Of a stretch of 64,000 nt of DNA, positions 47,216 through 52,663 are shown piece by piece; position 1 is the stretch's first letter, and each line of letters opens with the position of its first letter. The notes under the pieces were generated by a model that saw only the letters and a program-made list of their open reading frames with translations, had not been told where the DNA came from and searched no databases. Source of the DNA: an uncultured Pseudomonadota bacterium. Lineage in GTDB: Bacteria; Pseudomonadota; Gammaproteobacteria; Ga0077536. The DNA is taken from assembly GCA_903825645.1 (NCBI GenBank), contig CAIKBL010000080.1:1-64000 (forward strand). The letters are read 5' to 3'. Position numbers and translations under genes: made by a program.

Positions 47216-47866
47216 TCACATAGTCAGTTTCTTCACATCTTCGAGCGTTTTCTCAGGATCAGGGCGCACGGTGTAGTCGGGATCGACATCAACGTGCCGC
47301 ACGATACCATCCTGACCTACCACGATCCGTGCGGGCATGGGTAAAGTCCAGCTCTCATCACCGTTGAATGCGGGAAGGTCGATCCCAAAACTGCGATAGA
47401 TAGTTTGCAGTTCTCCCGTCAGAGCGTAGCGAAGGCCCAGCGCTTGGGCATAGGCGTTGTCCGGATCGCTCAAAATATCAAAGCCAAAATTATGTTTTTC
47501 GGCGATAGAAAGGCCGAATTTTGGCAACTGGGGCGACAGGGCAATCAGGGTCAAGCCCAGTGTCTGCAAACGCTTGGCGATGTCCTGCAAAGCATACAGC
47601 TCTGCAACACAATACGGTCACCAATGCCCGCGGAAAACCGTCAAAACGACACCGCCCTTGGCCAACAGATGGGCCGATGATACGGCCAAGCCCCGCATGT
47701 TGGTCAGTTCAAAAGGCGGCAGTGCGTCCCCTGTCTTGATCACCTTGTCGAGAATTCCAGACGCACGCAGATCCGCAGTGGCCCGGTTCATGGTGGCGAG
47801 AGTATCCGGCGGGATCTGTTTTACAGCACCCGCTCGGATTTCGTTCAGCTTTTCACACAGGTTCAT
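47216..47866 (-). CDS. Peroxiredoxin-like (AhpC/TSA fold) protein with in-frame TGA at the active-site Cys, candidate selenoprotein
   Basis: Read through one TGA (47618-47620, codon 83) the frame gives 216 residues: a helical N-terminus, GDALPPFELTNMRG, VVLTVFRGHW-TGA-PYCVAELYALQDIA, LIALSPQLPKFGLSIAEKH, and DPDYTVRPDPEKTLEDVKKL. Peroxiredoxin-like relatives read RG-x-W-C-P-Y-C here, so TGA sits on the catalytic Cys and yields a U-x-x-C redox motif with Cys86. The whole remainder is intact and matches the family on both sides. AAGGAGAAAGC precedes the ATG. A stem-loop 10 nt after the TGA could be the bacterial SECIS. It lies between a GST and an acyl-CoA dehydrogenase gene. The alternative is a simple nonsense mutation. 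Confidence 0.75.
47585..47607 (-). promoter_or_regulatory. Candidate bacterial SECIS stem-loop
   Basis: On the coding strand, 10 nt after the TGA, TTGCAGAGC (47607-47599) pairs with GCTTTGCAG (47593-47585) through nine pairs, two of them G-U, around the loop UGUAU with G at loop position 2. The UGA-to-loop distance is 19 nt. Size, distance and a G among the first loop bases agree with the published bacterial SECIS pattern as I recall it. Confidence 0.6.
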
Positions 47867-51970: not shown

Positions 51971-52663
51971 TCAGATGCTGGATGACAGGGGGAGCCCAGA
52001 CAATAAATCGGTAAAGCAGAATCCGTCGCGGGTGAGTGTTTCGCCGATCGAGATCGGGATGGCCTGAACAACCATCGGCCCGGCGTAACAAAAAGTATGG
52101 AACTCGCCGTTCTCACCGCAGGGATCAACGCTCGGTGGCAACTCATCCAGCAAGACCACATCATAGCCGCGACCCGAAAATTTCGTCGCTCACTGCGCTG
52201 GATCGACGCAAGTAATGACTGCCCGCAACCCGCCCCTCAACATCTCGCGCGCGAGCGCCGAAGTATCCAATGGGGTCCCCCATAGCGGGAACAGCGGCGT
52301 GATACCCGTATCCGCCAGCATAGCCTCGCGGTAGGCACGGATATCCTCGAGAAAGGATCCCCGAAGGCCATGTGTGTGGCACCGTCCGTCACCGCTTTAG
52401 TGATCACCTCGCGCATCGCGGAGGCGATGCTCGACATTGGTGCACGGAAAAGGTAGTGGGACGGGCCAAAGCGGCAGCCCGGTCGCCAACGCCTGCGCCT
52501 CGACCAGCGTCCGCCGCACGGCGTGCATCGCAACGCGCCCCACGACTTGATTGAAAGTCGTCAAAAAACCGACGATTTCGATGTCGGGTGTCTGCCGTAG
52601 GCGATGCAGTGCCCACGCGCTGTCCTTGCCAGAGCTCCAGGAAAGTAACACACGAGTGACCAC
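51971..52663 (-). pseudogene. Dph6-like / adenine-nucleotide alpha-hydrolase-fold ATPase, broken gene
   Basis: Starting from GTG 52663 the frame reads VLLSWSSGKDSAWALHRLRQ, the PP-loop (SGGxDS-like) of Dph6-related ATP pyrophosphatases, then LPFPCTNVEHRLRD. The frame changes near 52415 (probable loss of one copy of an ATGCG repeat). AMREVITKAVTDGATHMAFGD follows, then a second shift near 52355 into FLEDIRAYREAMLADTGITP. A TGA at 52190-52192 interrupts CVDPAQ-stop-ATKFSGR. The end, VDPCGENGEFHTFCYAGPM, is intact. All the conserved blocks remain, so the loss is recent. The family makes amide bonds by adenylation (diphthamide in eukaryotes). Its bacterial role is not known. Confidence 0.85.

Follow-up and report, generated by a model that had tools for sequence, protein, structure and literature searches.

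Peroxiredoxin-like (Prx-like) selenoproteins with a UxxC motif on the PF00578 (AhpC/TSA) domain have been known since 2005−2008 from the Sargasso Sea, GOS, and bacterial genomes (PMC1088965, PMC2398784, PMC1794560), and they also appear in a list from 2026. The gene investigated here lies in a 64,000-nucleotide stretch of DNA (the window) from an uncultured gammaproteobacterium, and its product can be likened by description to one of them, the Prx-like thiol:disulfide oxidoreductase or 'Prx-like 1' (PMC1088965, PMC2398784, PMC1794560, Table 1 of PMC13188914), with which it shares PF00578, UxxC, and the common occurrence of both selenocysteine (Sec) and Cys forms. More specifically, the translated protein matches PF00578 with 74.1 bits (cut-off 26) and also exceeds the cut-off of PF08534 (62.6 bits), and its motif reads U83-P-Y-C86. 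'Prx-like 1' was described from Deltaproteobacteria, which also contribute Sec forms to the present set. The RGHWUPYC gene thus fits the published PF00578 UxxC Prx-like description, a selenoprotein type that is already known.

Other described families differ in the motif or in the position of Sec. The peroxiredoxin-like family protein (AhpC/TSA; cd02970) in Table 1 of PMC13188914 is a UxxS selenoprotein, whereas the present motif is UxxC; its family name is borne by plasmid Cys homologues of the present protein. A 2022 review places the cd02970 UxxS protein under pfam13911, and a Pfam profile search of our protein returned no match to pfam13911. The Sec peroxiredoxin (TxxU) belongs to the same fold family but carries Sec at the position of the peroxidatic Cys, which is occupied here by Cys86, with Sec three residues earlier; its classical PxxxTxxU motif is replaced by RGHWUPYC. 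Bacterioferritin comigratory protein/PrxQ (3drn, 5epf, 2ywn) is among the closest solved structures in both sequence and fold, yet identity to the present protein is only about 20% and 2ywn has neither CxxC nor UxxC at the matched place. No true match to the motif emerged from a full-text literature search.

The gene occupies positions 47216−47866 on the minus strand and comprises 216 codons when TGA is translated as U, with homologues matching along the entire length. It starts with ATG at the 47866 end, preceded by a ribosome-binding region (47867−47885, minus strand, gaacgtaaggagaaagc-ATG) with a Shine-Dalgarno-like AAGGAG just upstream, and ends with a TGA at 47216−47218. The sole internal stop is the TGA at codon 83 (47618−47620, minus strand), the first position of UxxC within RGHW-U-PYC, at which an ordinary ORF listing breaks the gene into ORFs of 82 and 124 amino acids. 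In a codon-usage scan covering every TGA of the window that is flanked by 40 or more open codons to each side, this TGA obtained the best score for its weaker side (0.186 bits/codon; runner-up 0.139). The initial annotation had described a frame interrupted once, exactly at the position of the active-site Cys, behind an intact ribosome site, and both statements hold for this gene; its homologues have TGA or Cys at codon 83. Its neighbors in the genome are a glutathione S-transferase (GST)-like gene and an acyl-CoA dehydrogenase gene, and selAB does not adjoin it. The GST-like protein (47938−48711, minus strand) contains FSPFCWRTK and matches an NCBIfam beta-etherase model below cut-off; its codon at this site is for Cys, not Sec, and GST-like selenoproteins are already known from the 2026 list.

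The genome to which the window belongs (4.1 Mb, 99.5% complete) encodes the complete selenocysteine machinery, for which a search had been proposed along with the candidate. Contig C69 carries, consecutively, selA (114948−116297, 565 bits), selB (116342−118258, 425 bits), and a tRNA-Sec (118324−118419, 69 bits) with the anticodon TCA (UCA); the selB frame ends at 118288, short of the tRNA. Furthermore, selD was found on contig C34 (423 bits). SelA, SelB, SelD, and tRNA-Sec(UCA), the combination expected for a bacterial selenoprotein, therefore occur together in one genome.

Homologues are present in 24 of 36 genomes of the same family, our own included, and all 26 genes from these 24 genomes, which are separate assemblies, have TGA at the codon 83 site. 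One of them (L043) was read from its second part, with its first 68 codons apparently in another frame. In other families of the class, homologues show TGC or TGT at this codon. A scan of GTDB genomes recovered the motif in 79 of 80 loci, with TGA in 27 and a Cys codon in 52 (TGC 45, TGT 7). The alignment suggested in the initial annotation consequently places either TGA or Cys at exactly this site, the in-frame TGA standing where homologues have Cys, as is characteristic of bacterial selenoproteins. According to the taxa named in public records, Sec forms occur in Gamma- and Alphaproteobacteria, Desulfobacterota, Nitrospirota, Rokubacteria, and Planctomycetes. Within the family, selA accompanies the homologue in 23 of 24 genomes, counts that are not independent because these genomes share ancestry; the exception (G035) is 86% complete. 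Outside the family, selA was found above cut-off in 14 of 19 genomes with a Sec form versus 9 of 31 with a Cys form (Fisher one-sided p 0.0025). Among the remaining Sec-form genomes, four yielded no credible match to selA, and one yielded only a fragment located where a contig ends, which may reflect the incompleteness of draft genomes.

Directly downstream of the TGA, we found a hairpin of the bacterial SECIS type (47587−47605, minus strand), with a 7-bp stem (GCAGAGC/GCUUUGC) beginning 12 nt 3' of the TGA and the 5-nt loop UGUAU located 19 nt after it. These values agree with the bSECIS model, which describes an upper stem of 4−16 bp, a loop of 3−9 nt with G in its first two positions, and a distance of 16−37 nt between UGA and loop (PMC13188914). 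Starting at the TGA, a 45-nt stretch folds with −18.9 kcal/mol (z −3.75), and none of 200 shuffled sequences was as good. Pairing was seen for 93.4% of stem cells over 43 distinct Sec sequences, compared to 30−49% when the partner is slid by 1−3 columns; both partners have changed in two stem pairs, and the four inner pairs form in almost every case. As the stem overlaps coding sequence, codon choice is a stronger test than pairing. At the hairpin codons, the family's Sec genes use GAG for Glu (26/26), CTG for Leu (25/26), and GCT for Ala (26/26), while GCT appears in 3 and GAG in 27 of 52 Cys homologues at the same places. Another invariant Ala of these family genes, 26 codons past the TGA, uses all four codons. 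This gene and L024 show no differences in the hairpin stretch, with synonymous sites saturated on both flanks, indicating that synonymous change is suppressed within the hairpin. A search of the window against Rfam gave no match. Scanning the whole genome with the SECIS model revealed, besides this gene and a broken copy of it, weak matches only (two with E about 0.02, the others at least 0.7). The two best further matches were rejected, one lying antisense to a long gene and the other being a partial model match without TGA.

The broken copy (L050, C87:91908−94371 of the same genome) retains the TGA and the hairpin (50.5 bits to the SECIS model), but an insertion of 1.8 kb disrupts it after codon 139, near a contig end. 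Within the insertion lie a Gp49-like/HTH pair, resembling a toxin-antitoxin system, and a frame with a match to PF20279 (ABC-3C C-terminal domain 12).

Taken together, the sequence evidence makes it nearly certain that the gene encodes a Prx-like, thioredoxin-fold redox protein in which UGA-83 would be decoded as Sec; the candidate proposed initially is strongly supported by the machinery, by TGA or Cys in homologues, and by a SECIS hairpin whose synonymous sites are frozen. Decay or misreading of the gene, with the TGA as a real nonsense codon, might be considered given that another frame of the window carries stops and that the second copy in this genome is broken by an insertion. A TGA at the same codon in all 26 family genes and in other phyla speaks against such decay, however, as do the frozen hairpin and the pattern of substitution past the TGA, where pN/pS amounts to 0.19/0.77 in the comparison with L021 and to 0.25/0.75 with L022, values similar to those of the upstream part. 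By these sequence comparisons, the region past the TGA is under strong purifying selection, and a pseudogene or sequencing error has hardly any probability left. The reading of a single TGA through in frame would also be compatible with a genome-wide reassignment of TGA, for example to Trp or Gly, instead of Sec recoding at one site. This is more improbable still: homologues have Cys at this site rather than Trp or Gly, selA, selB, selC, and selD are all present, and TGA terminates several homologues as well as this very gene, so that it still works as a stop there. We regard pseudogene, sequencing error, and code change as effectively excluded.

The choice between two roles for Sec83 within a true selenoprotein is less one-sided. 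The AlphaFold2 model (pLDDT 95.7) matches Bcp/PrxQ structures and places Sec83 directly before a helix spanning residues 84−102. In the profile alignment to 2ywn, Sec83 takes the place of the Thr in TxxC and Cys86 that of the peroxidatic Cys, so that Sec83 corresponds to the first Cys of a thioredoxin-like CxxC. The TGA had initially been assigned to the catalytic cysteine, which stands insofar as it replaces the Cys of the homologues' CxxC but not in the sense of the classical peroxidatic Cys. The same alignment could argue for a classical peroxiredoxin mechanism, in which Cys86 would be peroxidatic and Sec83 would act as its resolving partner. We consider this rather unlikely, since Sec is expected to raise the catalysis of UxxC selenoenzymes over that of Cys homologues (PMC1088965) and Sec83 sits just before its helix, as does the Cys with which thioredoxin attacks. 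In analogy to other UxxC selenoproteins, Sec83 would instead be the attacking residue of a Sec83/Cys86 redox pair, in keeping with the U-x-x-C motif of known thioredoxin-fold selenoproteins to which the initial annotation had pointed.

Based on the established bacterial mechanism and the anatomy of the gene, SelB carrying Sec-tRNA(UCA) would bind the hairpin just 3' of the UGA, and this complex would lead to the insertion of Sec at UGA-83 without translation being stopped. The predicted product presents the motif U83-P-Y-C86 at the start of the helix. A peroxide or disulfide is the probable target of Sec83, which Cys86 would then resolve as a selenenylsulfide, and a thiol reductant such as thioredoxin could reduce the latter.

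To place the gene among its relatives, we consider a tree of 110 proteins, rooted at midpoint and built with one and the same residue at the Sec position of every row. TGA occupies the site in 52 of the 110 homologues, a sample that leans to the Sec group since loci were ranked by likeness to the Sec query, and in which some genes are represented twice, having been recovered in two ways. All 52 Sec proteins, which represent several phyla, fall on the same side of a branch (support 100/86) with L079 as the only Cys protein among them, and the Sec/Cys label requires two changes on the tree. No selA match was detected in the genome of L079, which fits what a change from Sec to Cys would predict and makes it a good case for studying selenocysteine loss. 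In a genome of the same family (G011), selA, selB, a PF00144 hydrolase gene, and the selenoprotein gene follow each other in this order on one strand, with a pyridine nucleotide oxidoreductase-SelD fusion beyond, and in three others (G012, G019, G030) the selenoprotein gene is within a few kb of selA. A tentative reading, which we would not favor at present, is that RGxWUPYC proteins represent an old, separate selenoprotein subfamily distinct from the published Prx-like families, with Sec ancestral across several phyla and the gene often beside Sec-machinery genes in this gammaproteobacterial family, perhaps with a selenium-handling role. The near-invariant SECIS core across these phyla makes the Sec subfamily findable and annotatable by that signature, an aid to annotation where standard gene calling splits the gene and no NCBIfam model covers the protein above its cut-off.

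Further frames with TGA were observed in the window and beyond. The initial annotation had mentioned real stops in other genes of the window, and a frame at 51971−52667 (minus strand) indeed contains TAA at 52397 and TGA at 52190. It presumably resembles a diphthine-ammonia-ligase-like ATPase; no SECIS-like hairpin was found at TGA 52190 and no Pfam match in the piece scanned, and the frame is probably a true pseudogene. In a genome of the same family, a more distant redoxin (L054, G011:C12:156566−157024) has N-terminal hydrophobic stretches and likewise reads FFRGHW-U-PYC, its single TGA being followed by a hairpin; several same-family genomes contain weak matches that also have one TGA. Beside selA on C69, a CMD/AhpD-like (PF02627) frame (L053) carries a single TGA at about 114597−114599 (minus strand) within C-H-Y-U (CxxU) and a predicted hairpin, and this candidate is likely a further selenoprotein of an already known sort.
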